From Acanthopleura granulata (taxonomy: Eukaryota > Mollusca > Polyplacophora > Chitonida > Chitonidae), in contig JABBOT010000010.1 of the NCBI GenBank assembly GCA_016165875.1, positions 11,059,498-11,123,497 on the forward strand: 64,000 nt of DNA, given 5' to 3'. Both the position numbers and the translations under genes were made by a program. This document shows, piece after piece, positions 2,692 through 59,192 of the stretch. The first letter of the stretch is position 1. The number at the start of each line of letters is the position of its first letter. The notes under the pieces were generated by a model that worked only from the letters and a program-made list of their open reading frames with translations, was not told the origin of the DNA and did not search any database.

Positions 2692-2763
2692 TTCCCATGC
2701 GGGGAATCGAACCCCGGCCGCCGCGGTGAGAGCGCGGAATCCTAACCACTAGACCACATGGGA
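2692..2763 (-). tRNA. tRNA-Glu (CUC), unit 2
   Basis: A 72-nt cloverleaf with perfect 7-bp acceptor stem, anticodon stem CCGCG/CGCGG around loop CTCTCAC (anticodon CUC), intact A and B boxes and a T-run terminator just downstream on the minus strand. It differs from the unit 3 gene by a single base, the first anticodon base. Confidence 0.95.
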
Positions 2764-4100: not shown

Positions 4101-4172
4101 TTCCCATGCGGGGAATCGAACCCCGGCCGCCGCGGTGAAAGCGCGGAATCCTAACCACTAGACCACATGGGA
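4101..4172 (-). tRNA. tRNA-Glu (UUC), unit 3
   Basis: An intact 72-nt cloverleaf with anticodon loop CTTTCAC (UUC). The body is identical to the CUC copies except for the wobble base. The Pol III terminator run TTTCTTTT follows. Confidence 0.95.
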
Positions 4173-5501: not shown

Positions 5502-5573
5502 TTCCCATGCGGGGAATCGAACCCCGGCCGCCGCGGTGAAAGCGCGGAATCCTAACCACTAGACCACATGGGA
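5502..5573 (-). tRNA. tRNA-Glu (UUC), unit 4
   Basis: An intact 72-nt cloverleaf with anticodon UUC, complete A and B boxes and a T-run terminator. It is the last UUC copy going rightwards; all later readable copies are CUC. Confidence 0.95.
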
Positions 5574-6903: not shown

Positions 6904-6975
6904 TTCCCATGCGGGGAATCGAACCCCGGCCGCCGCGGTGAGAGCGCGGAATCCTAACCACTAGACCACATGGGA
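6904..6975 (-). tRNA. tRNA-Glu (CUC), unit 5
   Basis: An intact 72-nt cloverleaf with anticodon CUC and a T-run terminator. Its spacer belongs to the attgctgatctgg subtype. Confidence 0.95.
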
Positions 6976-8304
6976 ATGCTGAATATCACGTCGAAAATAA
7001 GAGAAATGAAATATCTTCTCGTCGTCTGAGTAGGTACTTCAATAAATATCTTCTTTTGTCAGTTTTCTAAATGATATAGCACCTTGTGGTCAGCACACAC
7101 TTTCTTTTTCCATTTACCGCCATGTTAACTACAATTATTTATCAATTAAAGAAAATCGGCAGGCCGAATTTCCTTCGTTTTTGCACAAAGAATAAAGCCT
7201 AAGACACACGACGACCATTCAAAAGTACGGGATTTATGCATGGTGATGTTTTCCTACCAGGTCACAAGGTAGGAAACCCCCTAATTAATAGTGCCAAACA
7301 AGCTGCTGGCGTCATTAAACTCCACACCCATGTCAATATTGTTAACAATATGCATTAAAAAATTATCTATGTCATTTTCTAACACTATAAACACAGGTCT
7401 TTCAATCACAAAAAGAAATATCCACAGCCCCTAATAATAACCAGTGCATGTGCCTTCTTACCGTTAAGTGCCATCCAGTTTGACCACCATGAATAGGGCC
7501 TATAGGTGTAAACACATTGAAAAATACCCTTACTATTTATGAAGTCATTTCACAAAGAACTCACAGCTAAAACTTTATTCCCCAACTTGTGTGGGCCCAA
7601 AAGACACATACTCTCAAATAACTAGATGCTTGGCCTACAGGATATCCAAATATCATCAGGGGTAGACCACCATTTTGTCCAAATAAATCAGGTACAATGC
7701 ACGTATAGCGTCCTATTGCCATAGAAACAGTGTTGGGATCACTTGCTGATTGGGTAATATTTTCTTCTGTTTAATTGCAGCAACAAGTGATGGACATTTT
7801 CCCACCCATTATTTGTCATAGTTTATACCTGCAAAATTACCTGGCACTACTTGAATACACTTCAGAGATACAGCCAATGCCCACCCGTTCCCATCCTTTT
7901 CTGTGCGCCTGAGTCTTGAATACAAAATGGAATTAGTCTTTTCGTACCTATAGATTGCTGATCTGGAATTTTCAGAAGTTCTGCTGGCAAGAATGCCAAA
8001 CCGCTGTATGTTCCCCTAGTCGTACGTGCACGCAATTTCAAAGTATGTTGTAGTCTGGCTTTTGCTGCTGGAAATACTATATACATTGTGGCTTTTGGTT
8101 TTTCAAGCAGAATAGAGCTTTTCTTCCTTTCCTAAGTTGGAAACGTTATTTCAGTGTCATTGCACCAAACCAATGTTTCTTAACAGCAGAACAACTAATT
8201 GCACGACACCTGGAGATATGAACAACCAGCGTTTGATACATTTGACAGGTGGTAAAGGCTTCAAACACGCAATGAAATATTCTTTGCCAAGTTTGCAAAA
8301 GAAA

Positions 8305-8376
8305 TTCCCATGCGGGGAATCGAACCCCGGCCGCCGCGGTGAGAGCGCGGAATCCTAACCACTAGACCACATGGGA
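8305..8376 (-). tRNA. tRNA-Glu (CUC), unit 6
   Basis: An intact 72-nt cloverleaf with anticodon CUC and a T-run terminator. The unit shares diagnostic spacer variants with unit 9, three units on (for example cctacaggatatcc at about 7634 and about 11842). Confidence 0.95.
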
Positions 8377-9705
8377 ATGCTGAATATCACGTCGAAAATA
8401 AGAGAAATGAAATATCTTCTCGTCGTCTGAGTAGGTACTTCAATAAATATCTTCTTTTGTCAGTTTTCTAAATGATATAGCACCTTGTGGTCAGCACACA
8501 CTTTCTTTTTCCATTTACCGCCATGTTAACTACAATTATTTATCAATTAAAGAAAATCGGCAGGCCGAATTTCCTTCGTTTTTGCACAAAGAATAAAGCC
8601 TAAGACACACGACGACCATTCAAAAGTACGGGATTTATGCATGGTGATGTTTTCCTACCAGGTCACAAGGTAGGAAACCCCCTAATTAATAGTGCCAAAC
8701 AAGCTGCTGGCGTCATTAAACTCCACACCCATGTCAATATTGTTAACAATATGCATTAAAAAATTATCTATGTCATTTTCTAACACTATAAACACAGGTC
8801 TTTCAATCACAAAAAGAAATATCCACAGCCCCTAATAATAACCAGTGCATGTGCCTTCTTACCGTTAAGTGCCATCCAGTTTGACCACCATGAATAGGGC
8901 CTATAGGTGTAAACACATTGAAAAATACCCTTACTATTTATGAAGTCATTTCACAAAGAACTCACAGCTAAAACTTTATTCCCCAACTTGTGTGGGCCCA
9001 AAAGACACATACTCTCAAATAACTAGATGCTTGGCCTACACCATATCCAAATATCATCAGGGGTAGACCACCATTTTGTCCAAATAAATCAGGTACAATG
9101 CACGTATAGCGTCCTATTGCCATAGAAACAGTGTTGGGATCACTTGCTGATTGGGTAATATTTTCTTCTGTTTAATTGCAGCCACAAGTGATGGACATTT
9201 TCCCACCCATTATTTGTCATAGTTTATACCTGCAAAATTACCTGGCACTACTTGAATACACTTCAGAGATACAGCCAATGCCCACCCGTTCCCATCCTTT
9301 TCTGTGCGCCTGAGTCTTGAATACAAAATGGAATTAGTCTTTTCGTACCTATAGATTGCTGATCTGGAATTTTCAGAAGTTCTGCTGGCAAGAATGCCAA
9401 ACCGCTGTATGTTCCCCTAGTCGTACGTGCACGCAATTTCAAAGTATGTTGTAGTCTGGCTTTTGCTGCTGGAAATACTATATACATTGTGGCTTTTGGT
9501 TTTTCAAGCAGAATAGAGCTTTTCTTCCTTTCCTAAGTTGGAAACGTTATTTCAGTGTCATTGCACCAAACCAATGTTTCTTAACAGCAGAACAACTAAT
9601 TGCACGACACCTGGAGATATGAACAACCAGCGTTTGATACATTTGACAGGTGGTAAAGGCTTCAAACACGCAATGAAATATTCTTTGCCAAGTTTGCAAA
9701 AGAAA

Positions 9706-9777
9706 TTCCCATGCGGGGAATCGAACCCCGGCCGCCGCGGTGAGAGCGCGGAATCCTAACCACTAGACCACATGGGA
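9706..9777 (-). tRNA. tRNA-Glu (CUC), unit 7
   Basis: An intact 72-nt cloverleaf with anticodon CUC and a T-run terminator. The unit is nearly identical to its left neighbour. Confidence 0.95.
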
Positions 9778-11110
9778 ATGCTGAATATCACGTCGAAAAT
9801 AAGAGAAATGAAATATCTTCTCGTCGTCTGAGTAGGTACTTCAATAAATATCTTCTTTTGTCAGTTTTCTAAATGATATAGCACCTTGTGGTCAGCACAC
9901 ACTTTCTTTTTCCATTTACCGCCATGTTAACTACAATTATTTATCAATTAAAGAAAATCGGCAGGCCGAATTTCCTTCGTTTTTGCACAAAGAATAAAGC
10001 CTAAGACACACGACGACCATTCAAAAGTACGGGATTTATGCATGGTGATGTTTTTCTACCAGGTCACAAGGTGGGAAACCCCCTAATTAATAGTGCCAAA
10101 CAAGCTGCTGGCGTCATTAAACTCCACACCCATGTCAATATTGTTAACAATATGCATTAAAAAATTATCTATGTCATTTTCTAACACTATAAACACAGGT
10201 CTTTCAATCACAAAAAGAAATATCCACAGCCCCTAATAATAACCAGTGCATGTGCCTTCTTACCGTTAAGTGCCATCCAGTTTGACCACCATGAATAGGG
10301 CCTATAGGTGTAAACACATTGAAAAATACCCTTACTATTTATGAGTCATTTCACAAAGAACTCACCTAAAACTTTATTCCCTAACTTGTGTGGGCCCAAA
10401 AGACACATACTCTCAAATAACTAGATGCTTGGCCTCCACCATATCCAAATATCATCAGGGGTAGACCACCATTTTGTCCAAATAAATCAGGTACAATGCA
10501 CGTATAGCGTCCTATTGCCATAGAAACAGTGTTGGGATCACTTGCTGATTGGGTAATATTTTCTTCTGTTTAATTGCAGCCACAAGTGATGGACATTTTC
10601 CCACCCATTATTTGTCACAGTTTATACCTGCAAAATTACCTGGCACTACTTGAATACACTTCAGAGATACAGCCAATGCCCACCCGTTCCCATCCTTTTC
10701 TGTGCGCCTGAGTCTTGAATACAAAATGGAATTAGTCTTTTCGTACCTATAGATTGTTGACCTGGAACACTGTGTTTCCAGAAGTTCTGCTGGCAAGAAT
10801 GCCAAACCGCTGTATGTTTCCCTAGTCGTACGTGCACGCAATTTCAAAGTATGTTGTAGTCTGGCTTTTGCTGCTGGAAATACTATATACATTGTGGCTT
10901 TTGGTTATTCAAGCAGAATAGAGCTTTTCTTCCTTTCCTAAGTTGGAAACGTTATTTCAGTGTCATTGCACCAAACCAATGTTTCTTAACAGCACAACAA
11001 CTAATTGCACGACACCTGGAGATATGAACAACCAGCGTTTGATACATTTGACAGGTGGTAAAGGCTTCAAACACGCAATGAAATATTCTTTGCCAAGTTT
11101 GCAAAAGAAA

Positions 11111-11182
11111 TTCCCATGCGGGGAATCGAACCCCGGCCGCCGCGGTGAGAGCGCGGAATCCTAACCACTAGACCACATGGGA
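11111..11182 (-). tRNA. tRNA-Glu (CUC), unit 8
   Basis: An intact 72-nt cloverleaf with anticodon CUC and a T-run terminator. The spacer of this unit combines variants of both subtypes (the attgttgacctgg block with otherwise left-array variants), which suggests recombination or gene conversion between units. Confidence 0.95.
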
Positions 11183-12511
11183 ATGCTGAATATCACGTCG
11201 AAAATAAGAGAAATGAAATATCTTCTCGTCGTCTGAGTAGGTACTTCAATAAATATCTTCTTTTGTCAGTTTTCTAAATGATATAGCACCTTGTGGTCAG
11301 CACACACTTTCTTTTTCCATTTACCGCCATGTTAACTACAATTATTTATCAATTAAAGAAAATCGGCAGGCCGAATTTCCTTCGTTTTTGCACAAAGAAT
11401 AAAGCCTAAGACACACGACGACCATTGAAAAGTACGGGATTTATGCATGGTGATGTTTTCCTACCAGGTCACAAGGTAGGAAACCCCCTAATTAATAGTG
11501 CCAAACAAGCTGCTGGCGTCATTAAACTCCACACCCATGTCAATATTGTTAACAATATGCATTAAAAAATTATCTATGTCATTTTCTAACACTATAAACA
11601 CAGGTCTTTCAATCACAAAAAGAAATATCCACAGCCCCTAATAATAACCAGTGCATGTGCCTTCTTACCGTTAAGTGCCATCCAGTTTGACCACCATGAA
11701 TAGGGCCTATAGGTGTAAACACACTGAAAAATACCCTTACTATTTATGAAGTCATTTCACAAAGAACTCACAGCTAAAACTTTATTCCCCAACTTGTGTG
11801 GGCCCAAAAGACACATACTCTCAAATAACTAGATGCTTGGCCTACAGGATATCCAAATATCATCAGGGGTAGACCACCATTTTGTCCAAATAAATGAGGT
11901 ACAATGCACGTATAGCGTCCTATTGCCATAGAAACAGTGTTGGGATCACTTGCTGATTGGGTAATATTTTCTTCTGTTTAATTGCAGCAACAAGTGATGG
12001 ACATTTTCCCACCCATTATTTGTCACAGTTTATACCTGCAAAATTACCTGGCACTACTTGAATACACTTCAGAGATACAGCCAATGCCCACCCGTTCCCA
12101 TCCTTTTCTGTGCGCCTGAGTCTTGAATACAAAATGGAATTAGTCTTTTCGTACCTATAGATTGCTGATCTGGAATTTTCAGAAGTTCTGCTGGCAAGAA
12201 TGCCAAACCGCTGTATGTTCCCCTAGTCGTACGTGCACGCAATTTCAAAGTATGTTGTAGTCTGGCTTTTGCTGCTGGAAATACTATATACATTGTGGCT
12301 TTTGGTTTTTCAAGCAGAATAGAGCTTTTCTTCCTTTCCTAAGTTGGAAACGTTATTTCAGTGTCATTGCACCAAACCAATGTTTCTTAACAGCAGAACA
12401 ACTAATTGCACGACACCTGGAGATATGAACAACCAGCGTTTGATACATTTGACAGGTGGTAAAGGCTTCAAACACGCAATGAAATATTCTTTGCCAAGTT
12501 TGCAAAAGAAA

Positions 12512-12583
12512 TTCCCATGCGGGGAATCGAACCCCGGCCGCCGCGGTGAGAGCGCGGAATCCTAACCACTAGACCACATGGGA
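12512..12583 (-). tRNA. tRNA-Glu (CUC), unit 9
   Basis: An intact 72-nt cloverleaf with anticodon CUC and a T-run terminator. Confidence 0.95.
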
Positions 12584-13910
12584 ATGCTGAATATCACGTC
12601 GAAAATAAGAGAAATGAAATATCTTCTCGTCGTCTGAGTAGGTACTTCAATAAATATCTTCTTTTGTCAGTTTTCTAAATGATATAGCACCTTGTGGTCA
12701 GCACACACTTTCTTTTTCCATTTACCGCCATGTTAACTACAATTATTTATCAATTAAAGAAAATCGGCAGGCCGAATTTCCTTCGTTTTTGCACAAAGAA
12801 TAAAGCCTAAGACACACGACGACCATTCAAAAGTACGGGATTTATGCATGGTGATGTTTTCCTACCAGGTCACAAGGTAGGAAACCCCCTAATTAATAGT
12901 GCCAAACAAGCTGCTGGCGTCATTAAACTCCACACCCATGTCAATATTGTTAACAATATGCATTAAAAAATTATCTATGTCATTTTCTAACACTATAAAC
13001 ACAGGTCTTTCAATCACAAAAAGAAATATCCACAGCCCCTAATAATAACCAGTGCATGTGCCTTCTTACCGTTAAGTGCCATCCAGTTTGACCACCATGA
13101 ATAGGGCCTATAGGTGTAAACACATTGAAAAATACCCTTACTATTTATGAAGTCATTTCACAAAGAACTCACTGCTAAAACTTTATTCCCTAACTTGTGT
13201 GGGCCCTAAGACACATACTCTCAAATAACTAGATGCTTGGCCTACACCATATCCAAATATCATCAGGGGTAGACCACCATTTTGTCCAAATAAATCAGGT
13301 ACAATGCACGTATAGCGTCCTATTGCCATAGAAACAGTGTTGGGATCACTTGCTGATTGGGTAATATTTTCTTCTGTTTAATTGCAGCCACAAGTGATGG
13401 ACATTTTCCCACCCATTATTTGTCATAGTTTATACCTGCAAAATTACCTGGCACTACTTGAATACACTTCAGAGATACAGCCAATGCCCACCCGTTCCCA
13501 TCCTTTTCTGTGCGCCTGAGTCTTGAATACAAAATGGAATTAGTCTTTTCGTACCTATAGATTGCTGATCTGGAATTTTCAGAAGTTCTGCTGGCAAGAA
13601 TGCCAAACCGCTGTATGTTCCCCTAGTCGTACGTGCACGCAATTTCAAAGTATGTTGTAGTCTGGCTTTTGCTGCTGGAAATACTATATACATTGTGGCT
13701 TTTGGTTATTCAAGCAGAATAGAGCTTTTCTTCCTTTCCTAAGTTGGAAACGTTATTTCAGTGTCATTGCACCAAACCAATGTTTCTTAACAGCACAACA
13801 ACTAATTGCACGACACCTGGAGATATGAACAACCAGCGTTTGATACATTTGACAGGTGGTAAAGGCTCAAACACGCAATGAAATATTCTTTGCCAAGTTT
13901 GCAAAAGAAA

Positions 13911-13983
13911 TTCCATGCGGGGAATCGAACCCCGGCCGCCGCGGTGAGCGCGGAATCCCTAACACCACTGGAGCCACATGGGA
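13911..13983 (-). pseudogene. Broken tRNA-Glu copy, unit 10
   Basis: This aligns with the other tRNA-Glu genes but has several indels. One C is missing from the 3' acceptor strand, two bases are missing from the anticodon loop (leaving CTCAC between the CCGCG/CGCGG stem), and there are three single-base insertions in the 5' half. As written it cannot make a normal tRNA. The indels continue in the flanking spacer to about 14215, so a local assembly error is as likely as a true pseudogene. Confidence 0.85.
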
Positions 13984-15324
13984 ATGCTGAATATCACGTC
14001 GAAGCCAAAGTAAAATATCTTCTCGTCGTCTGAGTAAGGTACTTCAATAAATATCTTCTTTTTTGTCAGTTTTCTAAATGATGATATAGCACCTTGTGGT
14101 CAGCACACACTTTTCTTTCCATTTACCGCCATGTTAACTACAATTCATTTACTCAATTAAAGAAATCAGCGAGGCCGAATTTCCTTCGTTTTTGCACAAA
14201 GAATAAAGCCCTAAGACACACGACGACCATTCAAAAGTACGGGATTTATGCATGGTGATGTTTTTCTACCGGGTCACAAAGTGGGAAACCCCCTAATTAA
14301 TAGTGCCAAACAAGCTACTGGCGTCATTCAACTCCACACCCATGTCAATATTGTTAACAATGTGCATTAAAAAATTATCTATGTCATTTTCTAACACTAT
14401 AAACACATGTCTTTCAATCACAAAAAGAAATATCCACAGCCCCTAATAATAACCAGTGCATGTGCCTTCTTACCGTTAAGTGCCATCCAGTTTGACCACC
14501 ATGAATAGGGCCTATAGGTGTAAACACACTGAAAAATACCCTTACTATTTATGGAGTCATTTCACAAAGAACTCGCACCTAAAACTTTATTCCCTAACTT
14601 GTGTGGGCCCAAAAGACACATACTCTCAAATAGCTAGATGCTTGGCCTACACCATATCCAAATATCATCAGGGGTAGACCACCATTTTGTCCAAATAAAT
14701 GAGGTACAATGCACGTATAGCGTCCTATTGCCATAGAAACAGTGTTGGGATCACTTGCTGATTGGGTAATATTTTCTTCTGTTTAATTGCAGCCACAAGT
14801 GATGGACATTTTTCCACCCATTATTTGTCATAGTTTATACCTGCAAAATGACCTGGCACTACTTGAATATACTTCAGAGATACAGCCAATGCCCACCCGT
14901 TCCCATCCTTTTCTGTGCGCCTGAGTCTTGAATACAAAATGGAATTAGCCTTGTCGTACCTATAGATTGTTGACCTGGAACACTGTGTTTTCACAAGTTC
15001 TGCTGGCAAGAAATGCCAAACCGCTGTATGTTTCCCTAGTCGTACGTGCACGCAATTTCAAAGTATGTTGTAGTCTGGCTTTTGCTGCTGGAAATACTAT
15101 ATACATTGTGGCTCTTGGTTTTTCAAGCAGAATAGAGCTTTTCTTCCTTTCCTAAGTTGGAAACGTTATTTCAGTGTCATTGCACCAAACCAGTGTTTCT
15201 TAACAGCACAACAACTAGTTGCAAGACACCTGGAGATATGAACAACCAGCGTTTGATACATTTGACAGGTGGTAAAGGCTTCAAACACGCAATGAAATAT
15301 TCTTTGCCAAGTTTGCAAAAGAAA

Positions 15325-15396
15325 TTCCCATGCGGGGAATCGAACCCCGGCCGCCGCGGTGAGAGCGCGGAATCCTAACCACTAGACCACATGGGA
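15325..15396 (-). tRNA. tRNA-Glu (CUC), unit 11
   Basis: An intact 72-nt cloverleaf with anticodon CUC and a T-run terminator. It is the first unit of the right-hand set, marked by aacaatgtgc in the spacer instead of aacaatatgc. Confidence 0.95.
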
Positions 15397-16733
15397 ATGC
15401 TGAATATCACGTCGAAAATAAGAGAAATGAAATATCTTCTCGTCGCCTGAGTAGATACTTCAATAAACATGTTCTTTTGTCAGTTTTCTAAATGATATAG
15501 CACCTTGTGGTCAGCACACACTTTCTTTTTCCATTTACCGCCATGTTAACTACAATTATTTATCTAGTAAAGAAAATCGGCAGGCCGAATTTCCTTCGTT
15601 TTTGAACAAAGAATAAAGCCTAAGACACACGACGACCATTCAAAAGTACGGGATTTATGCATGGTGATGTTTTTCTACCGGGTCACAAAGTGGGAAACCC
15701 CCTAATTAATAGTGCCAAACAAGCTGCTGGCGTCATTAAACTCCACACCCATGGCAATATTGTTAACAATGTGCATTAAAAAATTATCTATGTCATTTTC
15801 TAACACTATAAACACAGGTCTTTCAATCACAAAAAGAAATATCCACAGCCCCTAATAATAATCAGTGCATGTGCCTTCTTACCGTTAAGTGCCATCCAGT
15901 TTGACCACCATGAATAGGGCCTATAGGTGTAAACACACTGAAAAATACCCTTACTATTTATGGAGTCATTTCACAAAGAACTCGCACCTAAAACTTTATT
16001 CCCTAACTTGTGTGGGCCCAAAAGACACATACTCTCAAATAACTAGATGCTTGGCCTACACCATATCCAAATATCATCAGGGGTAGACCACCATTTTGTC
16101 CAAATAAATGAGGTACAATGCACGTATAGCGTCCTATTGCCATAGAAACAGTGTTGGGATCACTTGCTGATTGGGTAATATTTTCTTCTGTTTAATTGCA
16201 GCCACAAGTGATGGACATTTTTCCACCCATTATTTGTCATAGTTTATACCTGCAAAATCACCTGGCACTACTTGAATACACTTCAGAGATACAGCCAATG
16301 CCCACCCGTTCCCATCCTTTTCTGTGCGCCTGGGTTTTGAATACAAAATGGAATTAGTCTTTTCGTACCTATAGATTGTTGACCTGGAACACTGTGTTTT
16401 CACAAGTTCTGCTGGCAAGAAATGCCAAACCGCTGTATGTTTCCCTAGTCGTACGTGCACGCAATTTCAAAGTATGTTGTAGTCTGGCTTTTGCTGCTGG
16501 AAATACTATATACATTGTGGCTCTTGGTTTTTCAAGCAGAATAGAGCTTTTCTTCCTTTCCTAAGTTGGAAACGTTATTTCAGTGTCATTGCACCAAACC
16601 AGTGTTTCTTAACAGCACAACAACTAGTTGCAAGACACCTGGAGATATGAACAACCAGCGTTTGATACATTTGACAGGTGGTAAAGGCTTCAAACACGCA
16701 ATGAAATATTCTTTGCCAAGTTTGCAAAATAAA

Positions 16734-16805
16734 TTCCCATGCGGGGAATCGAACCCCGGCCGCCGCGGTGAGAGCGCGGAATCCTAACCACTAGACCACA
16801 TGGGA
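16734..16805 (-). tRNA. tRNA-Glu (CUC), unit 12
   Basis: An intact 72-nt cloverleaf with anticodon CUC. The base run after the 3' end is TTTATTTT rather than TTTCTTTT, which still leaves four consecutive T residues as terminator. Confidence 0.95.
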
Positions 16806-18094
16806 ATGCTGAATATCACGTCGAAAATAAGAGAAATGAAATATCTTCTCGTCGCCTGAGTAGATACTTCAATAAACATGTTCTTTTGTCAGTTTTCTAA
16901 ATGATATAGCACCTTGTGGTCAGCACACGCTTTCTTTTTCCATTTACCGCCATGTTAACTACAATTATTTATCTAGTAAAGAAAATCGGCAGGCCGAATT
17001 CAAAAGTACGGGATTTATGCATGGTGATGTTTTTCTACCGGGTCACAAAGTGGGGAAACCCCCTAATTAATAGTGCCAAACAAGCTGCTGGCGTCATTAA
17101 ACTCCACACCCATGTCAATATTGTTAACAATGTGCATTAAAAAATTATCTATGTCATTTTCTAACACTATAAACACAGGTCTTTCAATCACAAAAAGAAA
17201 TATCCACAGCCCCTAATAATAATCAGTGCATGTGCCTTCTTACCGTTAAGTGCCATCCAGTTTGACCACCATGAATAGGGCCTATAGGTGTAAACACATT
17301 GAAAAATACCCTTACTATTTATGGAGTCATTTCACAAAGAACTCGCACCTAAAACTTTATTCCCTAACTTGTGTGGGCCCAAAAGACACATACTCTCAAA
17401 TAACTAGATGCTTGGCCTACACCATATCCAAATATCATCAGGGGTAGACCACCATTTTGTCCAAATAAATGAGGTACAATGCACGTATAGCGTCCTATTG
17501 CCATAGAAACAGTGTTGGGATCACTTGCTGATTGGGTAATATTTTCTTCTGTTTAATTGCAGCCACAAGTGATGGACATTTTTCCACCCATTATTTGTCA
17601 TAGTTTATACCTGCAAAATCACCTGGCACTACTTGAATACACTTCAGAGATACAGCCAATGCCCACCCGTTCCCATCCTTTTCTGTGCGCCTGGGTTTTG
17701 AATACAAAATGGAATTAGTCTTTTCGTACCTATAGATTGTTGACCTGGAACACTGTGTTTTCACAAGTTCTGCTGGCAAGAAATGCCAAACCGCTGTATG
17801 TTTCCCTAGTCGTACGTGCACGCAATTTCAAAGTATGTTGTAGTCTGGCTTTTGCTGCTGGAAATACTATATACATTGTGGCTCTTGGTTTTTCAAGCAG
17901 AATAGAGCTTTTCTTCCTTTCCTAAGTTGGAAACGTTATTTCAGTGTCATTGCACCAAACCAGTGTTTCTTAACAGCACAACAACTAGTTGCAAGACACC
18001 TGGAGATATGAACAACCAGCGTTTGATACATTTGACAGGTGGTAAAGGCTTCAAACACGCAATGAAATATTCTTTGCCAAGTTTGCAAAAGAAA

Positions 18095-18166
18095 TTCCCA
18101 TGCGGGGAATCGAACCCCGGCCGCCGCGGTGAGAGCGCGGAATCCTAACCACTAGACCACATGGGA
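18095..18166 (-). tRNA. tRNA-Glu (CUC), unit 13
   Basis: An intact 72-nt cloverleaf with anticodon CUC and a T-run terminator. Its unit is short (1361 bp) because about 48 bp of spacer is absent at about 16999. Confidence 0.95.
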
Positions 18167-19502
18167 ATGCTGAATATCACGTCGAAAATAAGAGAAATGA
18201 AATATCTTCTCGTCGTCTGAGTAGGTACTTCAATAAATATCTTCTTTTGTCAGTTTTCTAAATGATATAGCACCTTGTGGTCAGCACACACTTTCTTTTT
18301 CCATTTACCGCCATGTTAACTACAATTATTTATCTAGTAAAGAAAATCGGCAGGCCGAATTTCCTTCGTTTTTGCACAAAGAATAAAGCTTAAGACACAC
18401 GACGACCATTCAAAAGTACGGGATTTATGCATGGTGATGTTTTTCTACCGGGTCACAAAGTGGGAAACCCCCTAATTAATAGTGCCAAACAAGCTACTGG
18501 CGTCATTCAACTCCACACCCATGTCAATATTGTTAACAATGTGCATTAAAAAATTATCTATGTCATTTTCTAACACTATAAACACAGGTCTTTCAATCAC
18601 AAAAAGAAATATCCACAGCCCCTAATAATAACCAGTGCATGTGCCTTCTTACCGTTAAGTGCCATCCAGTTTGACCACCATGAATAGGGCCTATAGGTGT
18701 AAACACACTGAAAAATACCCTTACTATTTATGGAGTCATTTCACAAAGAACTCGCACCTAAAACTTTATTCCCTAACTTGTGTGGGCCCAAAAGACACAT
18801 ACTCTCAAATAACTAGATGCTTGGCCTACACCATATCCAAATATCATCAGGGGTAGACCACCATTTTGTCCAAATAAATGAGGTACAATGCACGTATAGC
18901 GTCCTATTGCCATAGAAACAGTGTTGGGATCACTTGCTGATTGGGTAATATTTTCTTCTGTTTAATTGCAGCCACAAGTGATGGACATTTTTCCACCCAT
19001 TATTTGTCATAGTTTATACCTGCAAAATCACCTGGCACTACTTGAATACACTTCAGAGATACAGCCAATGCCCACCCGTTCCCATCCTTTTCTGTGCGCC
19101 TGAGTCTTGAATACAAAATGGAATTAGTCTTTTCGTACCTATAGATTGTTGACCTGGAACACTGTGTTTTCACAAGTTCTGCTGGCAAGAATGCCAAACC
19201 GCTGTATGTTTCCCTAGTCGTACGTGCACGCAATTTCAAAGTATGTTGTAGTCTGGCTTTTGCTGCTGGAAATACTATATACATTGTGGCTTTTGGTTTT
19301 TCAAGCAGAATAGAGCTTTTCTTCCTTTCCTAAGTTGGAAACGTTATTTCAGTGTCATTGCACCAAACCAGTGTTTCTTAACAGCACAACAACTAGTTGC
19401 AAGACACCTGGAGATATGAACAACCAGCGTTTGATACATTTGACAGGTGGTAAAGGCTTCAAACACGCAATGAAATATTCTTTGCCAAGTTTGCAAAATA
19501 AA

Positions 19503-19574
19503 TTCCCATGCGGGGAATCGAACCCCGGCCGCCGCGGTGAGAGCGCGGAATCCTAACCACTAGACCACATGGGA
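19503..19574 (-). tRNA. tRNA-Glu (CUC), unit 14
   Basis: An intact 72-nt cloverleaf with anticodon CUC and terminator TTTATTTT, shared with unit 12. Confidence 0.95.
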
Positions 19575-20912
19575 ATGCTGAATATGACGTCGAAAATAAG
19601 AGAAATGAAATATCTTCTCGTCGCCTGAGTAGATACTTCAATAAACATGTTCTTTTGTCAGTTTTCTAAATGATATAGCACCTTGTGGTCAGCACACACT
19701 TTCTTTTTCCATTTACCGCCATGTTAACTACAATTATTTATCTAGTAAAGAAAATCGGCAGGCCGAATTTCCTTCGTTTTTGAACAAAGAATAAAGCCTA
19801 AGACACACGACGACCATTCAAAAGTACGGGATTTATGCATGGTGATGTTTTTCTACCGGGTCACAAAGTGGGAAACCCCCTAATTAATAGTGCCAAACAA
19901 GCTGCTGGCGTCATTAAACTCCACACCCATGGCAATATTGTTAACAATATGCATTAAAAAAATTATCTATGTCATTTTCTAACACTATAAACACAGGTCT
20001 TTCAATCACAAAAAGAAATATCCACAGCCCCTAATAATAATCAGTGCATGTGCCTTCTTACCGTTAAGTGCCATCCAGTTTGACCACCATGAATAGGGCC
20101 TATAGGTGTAAACACACTGAAAAATACCCTTACTATTTATGGAGTCATTTCACAAAGAACTCGCACCTAAAACTTTATTCCCTAACTTGTGTGGGCCCAA
20201 AAGACACATACTCTCAAATAACTAGATGCTTGGCCTACACCATATCCAAATATCATCAGGGGTAGACCACCATTTTGTCCAAATAAATGAGGTACAATGC
20301 ACGTATAGCGTCCTATTGCCATAGAAACAGTGTTGGGATCACTTGCTGATTGGGTAATATTTTCTTCTGTTTAATTGCAGCCACAAGTGATGGACATTTT
20401 TCCACCCATTATTTGTCATAGTTTATACCTGCAAAATCACCTGGCACTACTTGAATACACTTCAGAGATACAGCCAATGCCCACCCGTTCCCATCCTTTT
20501 CTGTGCGCCTGGGTTTTGAATACAAAATGGAATTAGTCTTTTCGTACCTATAGATTGTTGACCTGGAACACTGTGTTTTCACAAGTTCTGCTGGCAAGAA
20601 ATGCCAAACCGCTGTATGTTTCCCTAGTCGTACGTGCACGCAATTTCAAAGTATGTTGTAGTCTGGCTTTTGCTGCTGGAAATACTATATACATTGTGGC
20701 TCTTGGTTTTTCAAGCAGAATAGAGCTTTTCTTCCTTTCCTAAGTTGGAAACGTTATTTCAGTGTCATTGCACCAAACCAGTGTTTCTTAACAGCACAAC
20801 AACTAGTTGCAAGACACCTGGAGATATGAACAACCAGCGTTTGATACATTTGACAGGTGGTAAAGGCTTCAAACACGCAATGAAATATTCTTTGCCAAGT
20901 TTGCAAAAGAAA

Positions 20913-20963
20913 TTCCCATGCGGGGAATCGAACCCCGGCCGCCGCGGTGAGAGCGCGGAATCC
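20913..20963 (-). pseudogene. tRNA-Glu unit 15, 3' part, cut by LINE
   Basis: These 51 nt are tRNA nucleotides 22-72, including the CUC anticodon and B box. The gene is interrupted by the non-LTR element at 20964-26315. The matching 5' part is at 26316-26347; nucleotides 22-32 occur on both sides as the target-site duplication. Confidence 0.95.
20953..20963. repeat. Target-site duplication, left copy
   Basis: The 11 bp gcgcggaatcc adjoin the T-run (A tail) of the LINE and are repeated exactly at 26316-26326 on the other side. They cover tRNA nucleotides 22-32. Confidence 0.93.
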
Positions 20964-21112
20964 TTTTTTTTTTTTTCTTGAGAAATGTTTTATTTCCTTC
21001 AGTATACATGAAACGGTACAGACATTTTCTTACAAGTTTGCCCTGAGATTAAAAACATTTTTATCACAGTGTTAGGGCTTCCATTAATATCTTGTACACA
21101 GCTTTCCAGTGT

Positions 21113-24100
21113 CTAATCTGGCAAGTTTATAATTAGTTCACCAGTAGCATTTATCTTGATGAAAGGATTTGTGTTCAAGTAGTGCTTGTTAAACAAATCT
21201 TTACGTTTTCCCCAATACAAACTAGAGGAAATTATATTTGTTTTTAATAAGGACTTAAATAAAGCCTTAACTGACCCTTGTTTTCCGTCATACACCATCA
21301 CATTTCTTGTTTTGTACATTGCCAATCTGGCCAAACTGCAGACAATATTGACAAAAACGAAATTTACATTTTTCACCTTCCTCGTTACTCCGAACAGCAA
21401 GAGCTCCTGGTGAGACATCTGGTTTAAAACGCTTGGGTGAACAGAACGGAATAATGTTTCCAGAATATCGCAGATATATTTTATAAAGTCTGAATTATTA
21501 GGACAATTAGTAAATAAATGAAGCAAGTCTTCTACATCACCATCACACAGATTACATGTGTCACAGTCAACTAAACCGATGCGGAAAAGCTTTTCTTTCG
21601 TGTAAACGACATTATGAAGAATTTTCCAGTCCAGCTGTACCGATTCTGGACTCTTTCCAGGGAGACCTACAAGTGGCCACACAATGCCAAGATCAAAATT
21701 AGGAAACACCCTGCTCCAGTATCTCACAGAGGCTGGTTCCCTTATCAAATGTTGTCTGATATATCTGTACAAAATACCTGTTGTGAATGTATGCAGTTGA
21801 AAAACAGTCCCCTTCACAGTGATACAGGGTTCACTCTCTCTCTCAGAGCAATTATTGATTCTACCCAATATATTTAGCCATTCCATTGGTATCGCAGACT
21901 TTATAGCGCGATACACAGTAACAACTTTAGAAATATTTGCATCCGGACATTCATCTAACACCATCTCAACAATAGCACTTTCTGGAAGAAACCCGGAGAT
22001 AACAATATAGAGAAAATCCTTAATACAAAACAACTTTGCTCTAATAAAAAAGTCGAAGGTTTGAGCGTGTTGCTCTATAGCGATGTTTGGATTATAGAAA
22101 ATAGGTTGATAAAGAATCTGTTGTGCATTTATAATACACACAGTTACATTTTTCCGCAGGTCTGACCAGACTAACATCATTTCGGCGTAAAAAGGAGGAA
22201 TACCGCACAACAGGGATTTATTCAATGACATATAAAACAAAGGCATGTATAGGTTCAGATTTTGCCATCTCGATAAGAAAAACTTGAAGAAGGTCTTCCA
22301 TACAGCAGACCGGGTATCATCGAAAAAACGGCCCATAAATTTCAGCCGCAAAGCCTTCACTTTGCTCCGTATATCTGGCAGACCTAAACCACCTTTAGTC
22401 CTGTCATTTATAATCGTTCCGTAAGACACCAAATGAGCCTTATCGCCCCAAACAAAATCCATGCACATTTGTTTTACATCTTGTAAAATAACATCTGGGG
22501 CTGGTAAAACGGCCACGTTGTACCAGAATCTAGACAATAATAAGGACATTATAATTGCCACTTTGCCTTGCAAGGACAATTTGCGTTGTTTCCACATATT
22601 AACAGCGCACTTTACACTTTTGAGCTTTTCTGTCCAATTTCGCTCATTGCATACGTTTTGGTTCGGACCAAGATGCACGCCTAAGACTTTTATTGAGTCC
22701 TTTACAACAGGAATGTTTTCGATTTTGTCAACGTTGTCATTAATACCACAACAATAAATTTCAGATTTTTCAAAATTTACCTTGGCATTTGAAGCCTCAC
22801 AATATTTATTGACAGCACGCAACACACTTTTAACCGAAGAACGATTACACACCGTTACAGTTGCGTCGTCTGCATGCTGAAATAGCAAACATTGTGTGTT
22901 CATGCCAGGGATATCGATACCCTTTACATCTGGTGATCGTCTTAATAATGAGCCTAAAGGCTCAACGCTAAGAACATACAATAGTGCGGATATGGGGCAA
23001 CCCTGTCGCACAGATTTACATACGGAAAAATATTGGGTCACATGCCCATTGCACTTTACAGAAGACCTTATGTCGGTGTAGAAAATTGAAATCCACCTGC
23101 GAAAGTTATCACCAAATCCATACTGTGTTAAAACATCATTTAAAAACCCATGTGCTACTCGGTCGAAGGCTTTCTCTTGATCGAGTTTAATAAAATATGC
23201 TTCGACTTCATCGTTTTCTACATAGTACAAGGCATCACGTAGACTGCATATTGTGTAGGCTATATCCCTACCGGGAACACAACATGTTTGACATTCATTA
23301 ACGATAGTTCCAATGACTCTCTTAAGTCGGTTGGCCATACACCTAGAAATTATTTTATAATCCACGTTGAGTAGGCTGATTGGGCGCCAGTTTTTAAGGA
23401 GGGACCTGTCTCCTCTCTGCTTATAAATAAGTGAAATAACTCCACTTTGCATTACTCTTGTCAGCTGCCCTCTGTTGAAGATATCCTCATAAACATCAAA
23501 AAGAATTGGGCCTAAAAGTCCCCAAAAGTGGCGATAAAACTCCACCGTCAATCCGTCATTACCCGGGCTTTTATTACCGGCCATACCACCCAAGGATGTT
23601 GTCATTTCTTCCAATGTTAGAGGCTGCTCGCACAGGAGCCTATCTTCTTCATTTAAGGATACATCTATAGACCCTAACACAGATTTCTTGGCTTCTTCAT
23701 CAATCGGGTCGTACTTGTACAAGCTACTATAATATGAGTACACTTCACCCAAAATGCCTCTACAATCTGATCCATTATTGCCATTTGACGCCGTCAAGCT
23801 TTTTATGGTTTTATCTTGTTGTTGGTGTTTTTCCAAATTCAGGAAATACTTTGTGTTTTTATCACTCTCGTGTACATAGAGGGCTTTAGATCGTAAAATA
23901 GCACCCTTACACTTCTCCTTTTCAAAAACCTCGAGTTCCCCCTCAAGTTGCACAATATACTTTAAATCATAATTAGGCACAACACTGGCACGTCTATACT
24001 CATGGTCTAATTTTCTCTGAATAGCATTAATTTCTTCGTATTTTTTCTTCTGACGTCTTTTGCCATATGACTGTGAAAAGGTCTTGATTTTGTACTTAAG

Positions 24101-25009
24101 GTTATCCCACCATGTACAAATGTCGTAAACATACAACGGACAAGTCAACTGTTTGTCAATTAGCTGATTCACGGCAGAGCAAAAACCATCGTCATTTAAC
24201 AACGTGTTATTAAAAACATATAGGCCAGGGCCTCTTTCCACACTAGAAAATTCAAACTTTGCATAGACGATGGAATGGTCACTATAGGGAGAAAATTTTA
24301 TATGGACGTATTGACAACTAGCCAACAACTGCCTAGAAATTAAACAATGATCTATTCTACTCTGGCGCAACACACCGTCCACATGACGGCGCCACGTAAA
24401 ACCAGTTTTATCAGGATGTCTTGTACGCCACAAATCTGCTAGATTGTAAGTCTGCATAGTATTGCATAATACCGCCCTAGACTTATCGGACTCCAAACTA
24501 AGGCTTGAGCGATCCTCCCGTGCAAAAACCGTGTTAAAATCGCCCATCATGATGAGAGGTCTATCGCTCACTACATGCACTAGATTTTTAAAAAAGTCAG
24601 TTCTCTCCCCAACAGAATTCGGAGCGAAAACATTGATGACATCGATTTCATGTCCCTGAATAGAAATTGTTACCTTAATACAACGACCTGAGTCACTGAA
24701 ATAAACGTCCTTAATGTAATGTTTATGTTGTTTTCTGATCACAAAGGCTACACCTTTAAACTTGTCTGGAGAATTACTATAATATATATCGCCGTCGATA
24801 ACGTGTTTAATGTTTTCTATGAAAGCATCATCCCAGTGTGTTTCCTGTAGCGCAATAAGGTCTGAAGTAATATGATGGTTCAGAACTTCCTTTAACTTAT
24901 TTATATCCCTGAGTCCATTACAATTCAATGTGGCAAAAGTAAACATAAGAAAAAGAGTGAAAAAGCATAGACATACCGCCATGATGACAATTCTTAAGAG
25001 GAAAACCAT
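21113..25009 (-). CDS. LINE ORF2: APE endonuclease-reverse transcriptase
   Basis: A 1298-aa polyprotein that should nick target DNA and reverse-transcribe the element RNA. The APE-type endonuclease spans about residues 25-250: NCNG near 29-32, QETHWDD with Glu56, GDFN at 156-159, SRIDH at 217-221 and SDH at 243-245. Reverse transcriptase follows, with SPGNDGL, NWRPISLLN, KAFDRV, RQGCP and the active-site box at 712-715. That box reads HADD instead of the usual YADD or FADD. A CX2CX8HX4C-type zinc-binding C-terminus lies at about 1145-1165 (CNLCDGDVEDLLHLFTNCP). The first ~24 residues are hydrophobic and precede the endonuclease fold; translation could also begin at Met22. No frameshift or internal stop is seen. 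Confidence 0.95.
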   Translation of the reverse strand: MVFLLRIVIMAVCLCFFTLFLMFTFATLNCNGLRDINKLKEVLNHHITSDLIALQETHWDDAFIENIKHVIDGDIYYSNSPDKFKGVAFVIRKQHKHYIKDVYFSDSGRCIKVTISIQGHEIDVINVFAPNSVGERTDFFKNLVHVVSDRPLIMMGDFNTVFAREDRSSLSLESDKSRAVLCNTMQTYNLADLWRTRHPDKTGFTWRRHVDGVLRQSRIDHCLISRQLLASCQYVHIKFSPYSDHSIVYAKFEFSSVERGPGLYVFNNTLLNDDGFCSAVNQLIDKQLTCPLYVYDICTWWDNLKYKIKTFSQSYGKRRQKKKYEEINAIQRKLDHEYRRASVVPNYDLKYIVQLEGELEVFEKEKCKGAILRSKALYVHESDKNTKYFLNLEKHQQQDKTIKSLTASNGNNGSDCRGILGEVYSYYSSLYKYDPIDEEAKKSVLGSIDVSLNEEDRLLCEQPLTLEEMTTSLGGMAGNKSPGNDGLTVEFYRHFWGLLGPILFDVYEDIFNRGQLTRVMQSGVISLIYKQRGDRSLLKNWRPISLLNVDYKIISRCMANRLKRVIGTIVNECQTCCVPGRDIAYTICSLRDALYYVENDEVEAYFIKLDQEKAFDRVAHGFLNDVLTQYGFGDNFRRWISIFYTDIRSSVKCNGHVTQYFSVCKSVRQGCPISALLYVLSVEPLGSLLRRSPDVKGIDIPGMNTQCLLFQHADDATVTVCNRSSVKSVLRAVNKYCEASNAKVNFEKSEIYCCGINDNVDKIENIPVVKDSIKVLGVHLGPNQNVCNERNWTEKLKSVKCAVNMWKQRKLSLQGKVAIIMSLLLSRFWYNVAVLPAPDVILQDVKQMCMDFVWGDKAHLVSYGTIINDRTKGGLGLPDIRSKVKALRLKFMGRFFDDTRSAVWKTFFKFFLSRWQNLNLYMPLFYMSLNKSLLCGIPPFYAEMMLVWSDLRKNVTVCIINAQQILYQPIFYNPNIAIEQHAQTFDFFIRAKLFCIKDFLYIVISGFLPESAIVEMVLDECPDANISKVVTVYRAIKSAIPMEWLNILGRINNCSERESEPCITVKGTVFQLHTFTTGILYRYIRQHLIREPASVRYWSRVFPNFDLGIVWPLVGLPGKSPESVQLDWKILHNVVYTKEKLFRIGLVDCDTCNLCDGDVEDLLHLFTNCPNNSDFIKYICDILETLFRSVHPSVLNQMSHQELLLFGVTRKVKNVNFVFVNIVCSLARLAMYKTRNVMVYDGKQGSVKALFKSLLKTNIISSSLYWGKRKDLFNKHYLNTNPFIKINATGELIINLPD

Positions 25010-25019
25010 TAGTGTCAGT

Positions 25020-26213
25020 TTACATATTATCCTTCTTCTTGTATGGGACCATCCTTCTCGCTTTGTTTAGATTCGGCTGGGGTTTGTACCGTCGTCTACG
25101 TTTGCTGATCACCTCAGAAAATCCCGATCCTTGTGAGGAGTCTATGTCTCCACAATCGCTGTCTCTCCCCTCCTCTTGGTCAACCCTCATCGCACCACTT
25201 GTTACCCTGCAGTCCGGGTCATTGTTGTCGCCACCACACTCAGGGAGAACAGGCACGAGATCTCCGCTCTCCAGCGCCTGCTGCTCTGGATCTGCTCTTT
25301 CATTACCGGTCGTTGCCGCGAGCTGGGTCTCAAGAATATCTGGGTTGTTGAGCTCGGGCGCTTGCAGGCTTTCATGCCTACCTTCGTCGTCGTGAACTGT
25401 TGTCGCCTTGTTGGCCATCCGTTCATCATTCTCCGATTGTGAGCACTGGCAAGTAAACATGTTACAGGTGCCACATCCTTTGTGTTCATTGCATATGCAA
25501 GGGGAACAGTTGCAATCGAAACACCCTTCGCAGTAACACCTTTCACCTGCTTTACCACAATTCTCACACCGGGGGGTGGCGCACGCCTTTGCCATGTGGC
25601 CTTGGCGCAAACAGGTATGGCAGCGAAATTCTGGGCAATCCTTAAATAAATGATCGTCGGACAAGCACAAGGAGCAGACCTTTACTTGATTGTCATGTAC
25701 AACACGAAAGTATTCGTAGCTGTTTCCCGTGCTAAACTTCATGGCATACGGCAACGATTTCACATTTGGTGGAAGAACAACACGCACATACCTTGTTCCA
25801 TCGGCTATATTGGTACCTTTGTAAAAGCGCCGTTTGATTTCCGTCACCGTTTCCACATTCATTTCCAAGAGTTTGGCTCTAATTTCGCTGTCCTGCACAT
25901 AGCTCGATAAGTGCATGAATGACACGACCACAGACCTTCTTGTAACCTCTGTGCACGAACACTCCTGGCCCTCTACCGTAATCCCATCTTTCAATAAATC
26001 ACACACTTCTTTCTCTGCCACAGTAATCTCGAACCCAACGGTACCTTTCGGCACACATGCAAGAAGACTGTTTAGTCCACAAACATGTTCAATTTCCGCA
26101 ATCACCTTTTCAGCCGATATTCTCCTGTTGTCTCCAACCTCCACAAGTAACGATAAATCCTTCTGGTACAAACTTCTATTCCGGGAATGCCGATTCATGT
26201 TTGAGGAGGCCAT
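25020..26213 (-). CDS. LINE ORF1, CCHC zinc-knuckle protein
   Basis: A 397-aa ORF1 protein, expected to bind the element RNA as a ribonucleoprotein particle. The start is the ATG at 26213-26211; the frame stays open further upstream into the tRNA sequence, but only non-ATG codons lie there. Two CX2CX4HX4C knuckles are visible at about residues 179-220 (CSLCLSDDHLFKDC and CHTCLRQGHMAKAC). A further Cys-rich stretch follows to about residue 265. The N-terminal half has no recognised motif but aligns with the decayed ORF1 at 29530-30781 (shared: SFLHL/SFMHL, EIKRR, RYVRV). The C-terminus is acidic and then basic (SKRRRRYKP). The stop lies 10 bp before the ORF2 start. Confidence 0.88.
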   Translation of the reverse strand: MASSNMNRHSRNRSLYQKDLSLLVEVGDNRRISAEKVIAEIEHVCGLNSLLACVPKGTVGFEITVAEKEVCDLLKDGITVEGQECSCTEVTRRSVVVSFMHLSSYVQDSEIRAKLLEMNVETVTEIKRRFYKGTNIADGTRYVRVVLPPNVKSLPYAMKFSTGNSYEYFRVVHDNQVKVCSLCLSDDHLFKDCPEFRCHTCLRQGHMAKACATPRCENCGKAGERCYCEGCFDCNCSPCICNEHKGCGTCNMFTCQCSQSENDERMANKATTVHDDEGRHESLQAPELNNPDILETQLAATTGNERADPEQQALESGDLVPVLPECGGDNNDPDCRVTSGAMRVDQEEGRDSDCGDIDSSQGSGFSEVISKRRRRYKPQPNLNKARRMVPYKKKDNM

Positions 26214-26315
26214 ACCGAAAAAGCCAGGCCCCTCGGGAAAACAACGCCAACAACAACAACAACTCGCGACACACAAAACATGTCCGACCACCAAGGCAGT
26301 CACAGCCGAACCTCT

Positions 26316-26326
26316 GCGCGGAATCC
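26316..26326. repeat. Target-site duplication, right copy
   Basis: An exact copy of the 11-bp sequence at 20953-20963. It directly follows the 5' end of the LINE and continues into the tRNA 5' half. Confidence 0.93.
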
Positions 26327-26347
26327 TAACCACTAGACCACATGGGA
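26316..26347 (-). pseudogene. tRNA-Glu unit 15, 5' part, cut by LINE
   Basis: These 32 nt are tRNA nucleotides 1-32, including the 5' acceptor strand, D arm and A box. They lie immediately upstream, in the element's sense, of the LINE 5' end. With the piece at 20913-20963 they account for a complete gene plus an 11-nt duplication. Confidence 0.95.
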
Positions 26348-27642
26348 ATGCTGAATATCACGTCGAAAATAAGAGAAATGAAATATCTTCTCGTCGTCTG
26401 AGTAGGTACTTCAATAAATATCTTCTTTTGTCAGTTTTCTAAATGATATAGCACCTTGTGGTCAGCACACACTTTCTTTTTCCATTTACCGCCATGTTAA
26501 CTACAATTATTTATCAATTAAAGAAAATCGGCAGGCCGAATTTCCTTCGTTTTTGCACAAAGAATAAAGCCTAAGACACACGACGACCATTCAAAAGTAC
26601 GGGATTTATGCATGGTGATGTTTTTCTACCGGGTCACAAGGTGGGAAACCCCCTAATTAATAGTGCCAAACAAGCTGCTGGCGTCATTAAACTCCACACC
26701 CATGTCAATATTGTTAACAATATGCATTAAAAAATTATCTATGTCATTTTCTAACACTATAAACACAGGTCTTTCAATCACAAAAAGAAATATCCACAGC
26801 CCCTAATAATAACCAGTGCATGTGCCTTCTTACCGTTAAGTGCCATCCAGTGTGACCACCATGAATAGGGCCTATGGGTGTAAACACACTGAAAAATACC
26901 CTTACTATTTATGGAGTCATTTCACAAAGAACACCCACCTAAAACTGTATTCCCTAACTTGTGTGGGCCCAACAGATACTCTCAAATAACTAGATGCTTG
27001 GCCTACACCATATCCAAATATCATCAGTGGTAGACCACCATTTTGTCCAAATAAATGAGGTAGAATGCACGTGTATCGTCCTATTGCCATAGAAACAGTG
27101 TTGGGATCACTTGCTGATTGGGTAATATTTTGTTCTGTTTAATTGCAGCCACAAGTGATGGACATTTTTCCACCCATTATTTGTCATAGTTTATACCTGC
27201 AAAATCACCTGGCACTACTTGAATACACTTCAGAGATACAGCCAATGCCCACCCGTTCCCATCCTTTTCTGTGCGCCTGAGTCTTGAATACAAACTGGAA
27301 TTAGTATTTTCGTACCTATAGATTGTTGACCTGGAACACTGTGTTTTCACAAGTTCTGCTGGCAAGAATGCCAAACCGCTGTATGTTTCCCTAGTCGTAC
27401 GTGCACGCAATTTCAAAGTATGTTGTAGTCTGGCTTTTTCTGCTGGAAATACTATATACATTGTAGCTCTTGGTTTTTCAAGCAGAATAGAGCTTTTCTT
27501 CCTTCCCTAAGTTGGAAACGTTATTTCAGTGTCATTGGACCAAGCCAGTGTTTCTTAACAGCAGAACAACTAGTTGCAAGACACCTGGAGATATGAACAA
27601 CCAGCGTTTGATACATTTGACAGGTGGTAAAGGCTTCAAACA
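26348..27642. repeat. Array unit 16, tRNA part replaced
   Basis: A spacer unit of the right-hand subtype with more private changes than units 11-15 (for example acagatactctc at about 26971). It runs normally until the block just before the tRNA gene. There it switches at about 27640-27650 into reverse-transcriptase sequence of the second LINE. The expected tRNA gene is missing. The join falls at a short shared aaggctt, which suggests a deletion between unit and LINE rather than a clean insertion. Confidence 0.85.
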
Positions 27643-27649
27643 CTTTCAT

Positions 27650-40460: not shown

Positions 40461-59192
<18,732 letters not shown>

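Follow-up and report, generated by a model that had tools for sequence, protein, structure and literature searches.

A LINE within a tRNA-Glu gene of a tandem array

We read a window of 64,000 nucleotides (nt) from the chiton Acanthopleura granulata (contig JABBOT010000010.1, positions 11,059,498 to 11,123,497), which holds a tandem array of tRNA-Glu genes and, inside one of its ~1.4-kb units, a long interspersed nuclear element (LINE), here locus L012. The window contains 13 intact tRNA-Glu genes; full array units are 95.6–98.9% alike to the query unit, and matches to the array occur between 10.98 and 11.09 Mb of this contig. The features, including the open reading frames (ORFs), the apurinic/apyrimidinic endonuclease (APE) and the predicted RNA recognition motif (RRM)-like folds, are as follows.

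1..27643, minus strand: tandem array of ~1.4-kb tRNA-Glu units with the element inside (comparison of units)
20913..20963, minus strand: split tRNA-Glu gene, 3′ part (nt 22 to end)
20953..20963, no strand: target site duplication GCGCGGAATCC, 11 bp, copy beside the 3′ end of the element
20964..26315, minus strand: LINE element, 5352 bp, 5′ end at 26315 (sequence read)
20964..20976, minus strand: A tail, T13 on the plus strand; one A is possibly tRNA A21
21113..25009, minus strand: ORF2, 1298 aa, no stop; APE endonuclease, reverse transcriptase and a weak C-terminal zf-RVT
22670..23398, minus strand: ORF2 reverse transcriptase, residues 538-780 (PF00078)
24275..24934, minus strand: ORF2 APE-type endonuclease, residues 26-245 (PF03372; L1 endonuclease among the solved structures)
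25020..26213, minus strand: ORF1, 397 aa, ATG at 26213; predicted RRM-like folds and CCHC-type cysteine motifs
26316..26326, no strand: target site duplication GCGCGGAATCC, 11 bp, copy beside the 5′ end of the element
26316..26347, minus strand: split tRNA-Glu gene, 5′ part (nt 1-32)

A preliminary description of the window had reported an uninterrupted 5,352-bp LINE with two ORFs, a 13-nt A tail and an exact 11-bp duplication, all of which were seen again in the sequence and its ORFs. Its placement of the element within a tRNA-Glu gene was borne out when the flanks, joined in silico, were called tRNA-Glu(CTC) by ARAGORN. The nick that it set between tRNA nt 21 and 22 was also right, with an ambiguity of one base because A21 is indistinguishable from the A tail. 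The two ends of the element, the 5′ start and the 3′ A tail, are unlike each other; the script query for the element spanned 20965-26316, one base off its bounds. The A tail and, among the copies described below, target duplications of variable length are signs of target-primed insertion.

The APE endonuclease and the reverse transcriptase (RT) of the element lie within a single ORF (ORF2; PF03372 and PF00078), and the C-terminal zf-RVT match scores below the Pfam cut-off. Among solved structures, those of L1 ORF2p came closest to ORF2 (E 2.4e-81), against 1.9e-11 for R2. ORF1 had no match in Pfam. Its structural model had a mean predicted local distance difference test (pLDDT) value of 65.9, with residues 21-220 at 84-95 per ten-residue block, and resembled tandem-RRM proteins such as UP1 and NONO in Foldseek, with low template modelling (TM) scores. 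Conserved CX2CX4HX4C (CCHC-type) motifs lie C-terminal to the predicted RRM-like part.

Further copies in the host assembly

The host assembly (606.5 Mb) was searched for further copies. With the 5′ 521 bp of the element, 40 of 55 candidates were scored (84-100% alike), and with the 3′ 523 bp, 40 of 63 (93-100% alike); all copy counts given here are lower bounds. The first 20 loci of the 5′ search were fetched whole and the other 20 as 5′ slices. The 3′ slices consisted of 19 placed by guess plus one array site, and of 18 from the 3′-end search plus an extension (L090) and an array site (L091, ending in N); the 3′ side of place C78 was left out, and L081, L088 and L090 stand in for the off-target slices L052, L061 and L069. 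In all, 47 3′ ends were read, namely the 40 of the 3′-end search and those of L024, L029, L054, L058, L066, L071 and L090. Unreadable 3′ ends were those of L014, L015, L018 and L067 (N), L021 (where the element breaks off), and L057, L060, L063 and L070 (slice off target).

One or more intact tRNA genes, often of the invaded isotype, were present in the fetched flanks of 16 of the 20 whole loci; L019, L023, L024 and L030 had none. The suggestion that the tandem array acts as a safe niche for the element fits this finding. L013 (Ile) and L017 (Ser) share one interleaved Ser/Ile array, where each is oriented as its own tRNA, on opposite strands. A tRNA family search of the assembly gave 51,663 first-look candidates, a figure that does not equal the number of genes.

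tRNA isotypes at the 3′ junctions

The A-rich tail was kept in 44 of the 47 3′ ends, and all 44 continue into tRNA sequence in the orientation of the tRNA. Forty-three of these copies lie in tRNA genes of 15 isotypes (Leu 7, Gln 6, Val 5, Asp 4, Glu 3, Ile 3, Arg 2, Phe 2, Lys 2, Trp 2, Thr 2, Asn 2, Ser 1, Met 1 and Gly 1), and one (L080) lies in a tRNA-like dispersed repeat. Against 54 intact tRNA genes called by ARAGORN in the window and in L012-L031, 37 of the 44 3′ flanks gave a match, which backs 11 isotypes directly. Thirty-one of the 37 align from nt 20-26 to the 3′ part of the gene, and six align only near its 3′ end (Leu L055, L058, L059, L072 and L081; Gly L073). The flanks of L024, L030, L056, L075, L080, L082 and L084 did not match any of the 54 genes. 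When Rfam was run on the 3′ slices of L056, L062, L073, L075, L080, L082 and L084, the single tRNA match was L082, below the gathering score; split tRNAs are missing half of the structure.

The Met, Gly, Asn and Phe isotypes and the Ile-TAT assignment of L029 are by-eye readings of the anticodon arm, and neighbours matching the Met and Ile-TAT flanks were called 'SeC' and 'Leu' by ARAGORN. Anticodons have drifted in L019, L024 and L031, whose isotypes were placed from the remaining sequence. An exact B box was found in 34 of the 44 3′ flanks versus none of 43 in the following 70 bp (the script count, n=45, took in one false row, L052).

The target is therefore tRNA genes as a class, not tRNA-Glu, because one family occupies one tRNA position in 15 isotypes. 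Of the proposal that this LINE targets tRNA-Glu, the site specificity stands, while the isotype does not: the flanks of the A-tailed copies are related to one another, yet only L012, L066 and L071 (3/44) are in tRNA-Glu genes. L071 (G000:C10:10984600-10985100), which lies ~95 kb away in the array of the window copy, is a second, older insertion at the identical tRNA-Glu site.

Position of insertion, 5′ flanks and target duplications

Positions were counted back from the anticodon (nt 34), and the join at nt 21/22 (slashes mark joins) was resolved as far as the shared A permits. The join lies at nt 21/22, right after A21 and just 3′ of the A box, in 33 of the 44 A-tailed copies; 26 of them have 12 nt ahead of the anticodon, and seven have 11 nt, with A22 merging into the A tail. 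Joins start 1-2 nt earlier in L024, L062, L081 and L089, so that 37 of 44 are within 2 nt. Other joins follow A23 or A24 (L020, L027, L056 and L084, with both Lys copies at A23) or lie at 26/27 (L074). The anticodon offsets of L029 (one of the 26), L056 (a Lys copy) and L062 were read by eye, the script having picked another frame. Of the remaining two copies, L066 is ambiguous in position, and L080, which is without tRNA numbering, fits GGTTA/GCGCG when read together with the 5′ flank of L018.

BLAST matched 26 of the 40 5′ flanks to an intact tRNA gene, compared with 2 of 80 upstream control windows. Twenty-three of the 26 begin at nt 1-4, and the matches end at nt 26-37 except in L016 (46) and L032 (15); the 5′ joins are mostly within the anticodon arm. 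An A-box pattern test on the 5′ flanks (33/40 versus 25/80 in the control) was too loose, and BLAST to intact tRNAs was used instead.

A clean exact duplication was found in 12 of 26 flank pairs, 10-15 bp long in 11 and 24 bp in the Arg copy L016. By a second method, applied to 16 flank pairs, the duplication was 7-16 bp in 12 and 26 bp in L016, and the match in L019 was spurious. Thirteen of these 16 pairs could be joined, and eight joined sequences were called tRNA by ARAGORN (Glu, Ile, Arg, Ser, Asp ×3 and Lys). The Asp copies are separate insertions, because they differ in duplication length and in the extra bases at the 5′ join.

At the 5′ junctions of L015 and L044, a G run followed by a piece read as another tRNA stands between the split tRNA and the element; the piece is Asn-like in L015 and without an isotype in L044. 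These pieces look as if the parent RNA had started within the tRNA gene housing the parent copy. In L019, L020, L022 and L023 the 5′ and 3′ flanks are mismatched (L020, for example, is Ser-like at the 5′ side and Gln at the 3′ side), and the L019 copy abuts, head-on, an inverted piece of the element. The mismatches suggest recombination between copies or aberrant insertion.

Targeting of tRNA genes as a class

The A-box-plus-A21 pattern and an A at -1 are common to all 12 tabulated targets. After masking of tRNA genes and the element, 63.8 kb of host DNA contained the same pattern at 47 places, which extrapolates to ~450,000 per genome, and none of the 44 A-tailed copies was at such a site outside tRNA or tRNA-like sequence. 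With pattern sites so abundant, yet no copy among them, the local sequence probably does not make up the full address by itself, and for that reason we infer, by exclusion, a host tether on genes transcribed by RNA polymerase III (Pol III). We put at roughly 0.6 the probability that the A-tailed copies, which lie inside genes of at least 15 isotypes and mostly after nt 21, arrived by docking on the Pol III apparatus.

In the mechanism that we propose, the element would dock on the Pol III apparatus that marks tRNA genes, and a host factor present on them (TFIIIC, TFIIIB or Pol III) would give recognition of the class. The endonuclease would then pick the exact base, with the first nick on the template strand beside A21; reverse transcription would be target-primed from the A tail at this nick, and the opposite strand would be cut second, about 10-15 nt downstream. 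Tandem tRNA arrays would make every hit cheap for the host. Whether the host Pol III machinery thus supplies the gene class and the element's own endonuclease the nucleotide, such that every tRNA gene is one target, we regard as an even bet.

Several observations weigh against docking on Pol III genes. Besides resting on exclusion for its tethering step, it relies on a pattern frequency extrapolated from 63.8 kb. In the searches for further copies, 15 (5′ search) and 23 (3′ search) first-look candidates remained unscored, and some places probably stem from a single insertion by duplication (L058/L059, perhaps also L076/L077 and L068/L078; L033/L037, whose 5′ flanks are identical, are likely duplicates as well). 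Fourteen of the 40 5′ flanks had no BLAST match to an intact tRNA; seven of these are tRNA-like by eye, and L019, L023, L036, L041, L042, L045 and L051 are not. A clean duplication was absent from 14 of 26 flank pairs, including L035 with a spurious 7-bp match, and the second method found none for L022, L023 and L031. Three of the 47 3′ ends (L064, L085 and L088) stop ~47 nt short of the element's end, so that the A tail is missing too, and lie outside tRNA, two of them embedded in a common C53 satellite. Finally, L080 and the 5′ flank of L018 are not plain tRNA genes but a tRNA-like dispersed repeat, L080 being read as such because its pieces match 24 other places; from L080, an A/B-box-like sequence may be enough for targeting. 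As a separate observation, the C53 loci are L042, L045, L064 and L088, two of which share the same 3′ truncation and are satellite-embedded outside tRNA.

Base-exact joins in 33 of 44 copies, and the pattern and the A at -1 shared by all 12 tabulated sites, are what would be expected if ORF2 alone recognised bases of the tRNA gene (the A box, G18G19, A21, and perhaps the D-stem and beyond) with no host factor. The strike at the homologous GGTTA/GCGCG site of the tRNA-like repeat also speaks for such direct reading of DNA, as does the argument that Dada DNA transposons locate their tRNA sites via primary sequence (PMC8869645). We nevertheless consider direct reading rather unlikely, since the ~450,000 extrapolated non-tRNA sites are too many for a pattern at which 0/44 copies lie outside tRNA or tRNA-like sequence, and the spacing from GG to A21 varies by 1-3 nt. 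A variant, in which several domains read a longer, gapped motif, is possible. Guidance by the tRNA transcript, or by an R-loop at transcribed tRNA genes, in place of Pol III proteins would give equal class-wide targeting, and the pieces of other tRNAs at the 5′ joins of L015 and L044 would suit it; base-pairing of the element RNA with its targets was not noticed, although no test was aimed at it, and we hold this route to be improbable.

Two further explanations are already refuted by the spread of the copies. That few insertions were multiplied through array amplification or assembly error might be thought from the few pairs with near-identical flanks and from the clustering of many matches in arrays, but the copies are spread over 15 isotypes and many contigs, the Asp copies vary among themselves at their joins, and the copies have diverged at both the 5′ and the 3′ ends; such a chance or copying artefact is very improbable. 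Still less credible is a LINE specific to tRNA-Glu: it would account for the window copy and the two older Glu copies, L071 in the same C10 array and L066, but not for the 14 further isotypes.

Docking on the Pol III apparatus with base-exact cutting would, if true, join two known strategies of aiming, Pol III-gene tethering and base-exact cutting, in one element, which would strike inside the promoter-bearing gene itself. Site-specific LINEs are known to read one sequence, and tethered LINEs to insert near their targets, not within them; class-wide finding of tRNA genes by a LINE would be a new way of aiming. A family striking any tRNA gene at a single internal base would show how the targets of a LINE can be widened from a single gene family to tRNA genes in general. 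With so many different natural targets sharing a position, the question of tether or sequence is directly testable. The result also bears on tRNA gene arrays, as split tRNA genes are present in arrays of several isotypes in the genome.

Comparison with known target-specific elements

The dictyostelid elements TRE5, TRE3 and NLTR-A/B are L1-clade LINEs found at tRNA genes, and for TRE5 a contact of its ORF1 with TFIIIB is reported (PMC5911963, PMC5006619). The window family is like them an APE-type LINE aimed at tRNA genes as a class. Unlike them, it inserts inside the gene, mostly at nt 21/22, whereas the dictyostelid elements insert 2-64 bp upstream or 40-150 bp downstream (PMC5911963). Non-long terminal repeat (non-LTR) elements in tRNA genes themselves are also on record: LIN25_SM (tRNA-Glu, planaria), LIN15_SM (tRNA-Arg) and NeSL-1_TV (tRNA-Pro) are reported to be tRNA-gene-specific and are treated with NeSL-related families, and LIN25_SM is thus a tRNA-Glu-specific non-LTR element previously in print (PMC4640811). 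By description they are set apart from the present family, with one isotype named for each as against 15 here. According to PMC4640811, a restriction-like endonuclease is present in those target-specific elements that fall outside the Tx1 and R1 clades, whereas the window ORF2 has an N-terminal APE endonuclease.

Keno (U2 small nuclear RNA, snRNA), Mutsu (5S rRNA) and Dewa (tRNA-Leu spacer) are site-specific LINEs (PMC3706591, PMC4640811), and Keno and the target-specific elements of the Tx1 clade carry an APE-type endonuclease (PMC4640811). The window family resembles Keno in being site-specific with this endonuclease; one target is given for each of the three, in contrast to any of 15 isotypes here. 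Dada DNA transposons also go into tRNA genes, where they occupy homologous places, and some of their families use two isotypes (PMC3706591, PMC8869645); they differ from the window family (nt 21/22) in having a DDE transposase, 6-7 bp duplications and insertion at nt 8-13 or in the anticodon region. A report of a LINE in many tRNA isotypes was not recognised among the papers listed in the literature searches, which did not extend to Repbase Reports and most subscription journals, and none was recognised in the available parts of the mollusc LINE papers PMC10294476 and PMC11203168.

Classification and relatives

The domains of ORF2 support an APE-type LINE family of the L1 group, and the earlier guess of a Tx1- or L1-type element is compatible with the APE endonuclease and the L1-like RT. 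CCHC zinc motifs in ORF1 are a criterion of the Tx1 clade, to which Keno, Mutsu and Dewa belong, and are not exclusive to it. Membership of the Tx1 clade is likely, though unproven. In an RT tree of 47 hand-chosen rows, the window copy formed a supported group with P0001, P0002 and P0082, and the sole anchor, the Keno-like L002, stood outside as a long branch.

Related loci were not found in viral contigs, and the two found in genome contigs were both in bacterial metagenome-assembled genomes. L002 (3490-5340) is a Keno-like LINE in U2 snRNA with an A-rich tail directly before AGTATCTG; its RT is 32% alike to that of the window element, too distant to show clade membership, and its contig, filed as a gamma-proteobacterial symbiont genome, is likely eukaryotic contamination. 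The U2 consensus at the L002 site, GUGUA/GUAUC, resembles the Asp site GGTGA/GTATC, and if this is not chance, the targeting of U2 and that of tRNA genes could be connected through a shared preference of the endonuclease. In L001 (41% alike) ARAGORN found no tRNA, and a junction-pattern search of viral contigs gave one match, L003, without a tRNA.

P0028, P0047 and P0052 are Mytilus relatives. When the host genome was searched with P0028, 36 of 1155 candidates were scored; of the 39 rows obtained, 32 are in loci of the window element's family, and a search with P0095 gave largely the same places. The other seven P0028 rows are ORF2-like frames at five places outside the examined loci, which may or may not be of this family (G000 C8:16628268, C11:13399890, C11:13356184, C8:2905010 and C11:13274747). 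P0082 (an ORF2 relative, 54%) and P0123 (an ORF1 relative, 52%) are on contigs of equal length (16,486) and so are probably from one contig.

Other features of the window

A degenerate tRNA-Glu lies inside the array at 13911-13984; ARAGORN made no call there, and by eye it contains no insertion. Outside the array, 30905-31355 holds a fragment of the array unit (84% alike), and 43574-44191 is an exon of a PP4R3/SMEK-like gene, relatives of which carry PF04802. Minisatellite arrays occupy 37824-38298, 53781-54203 and 58384-59082.

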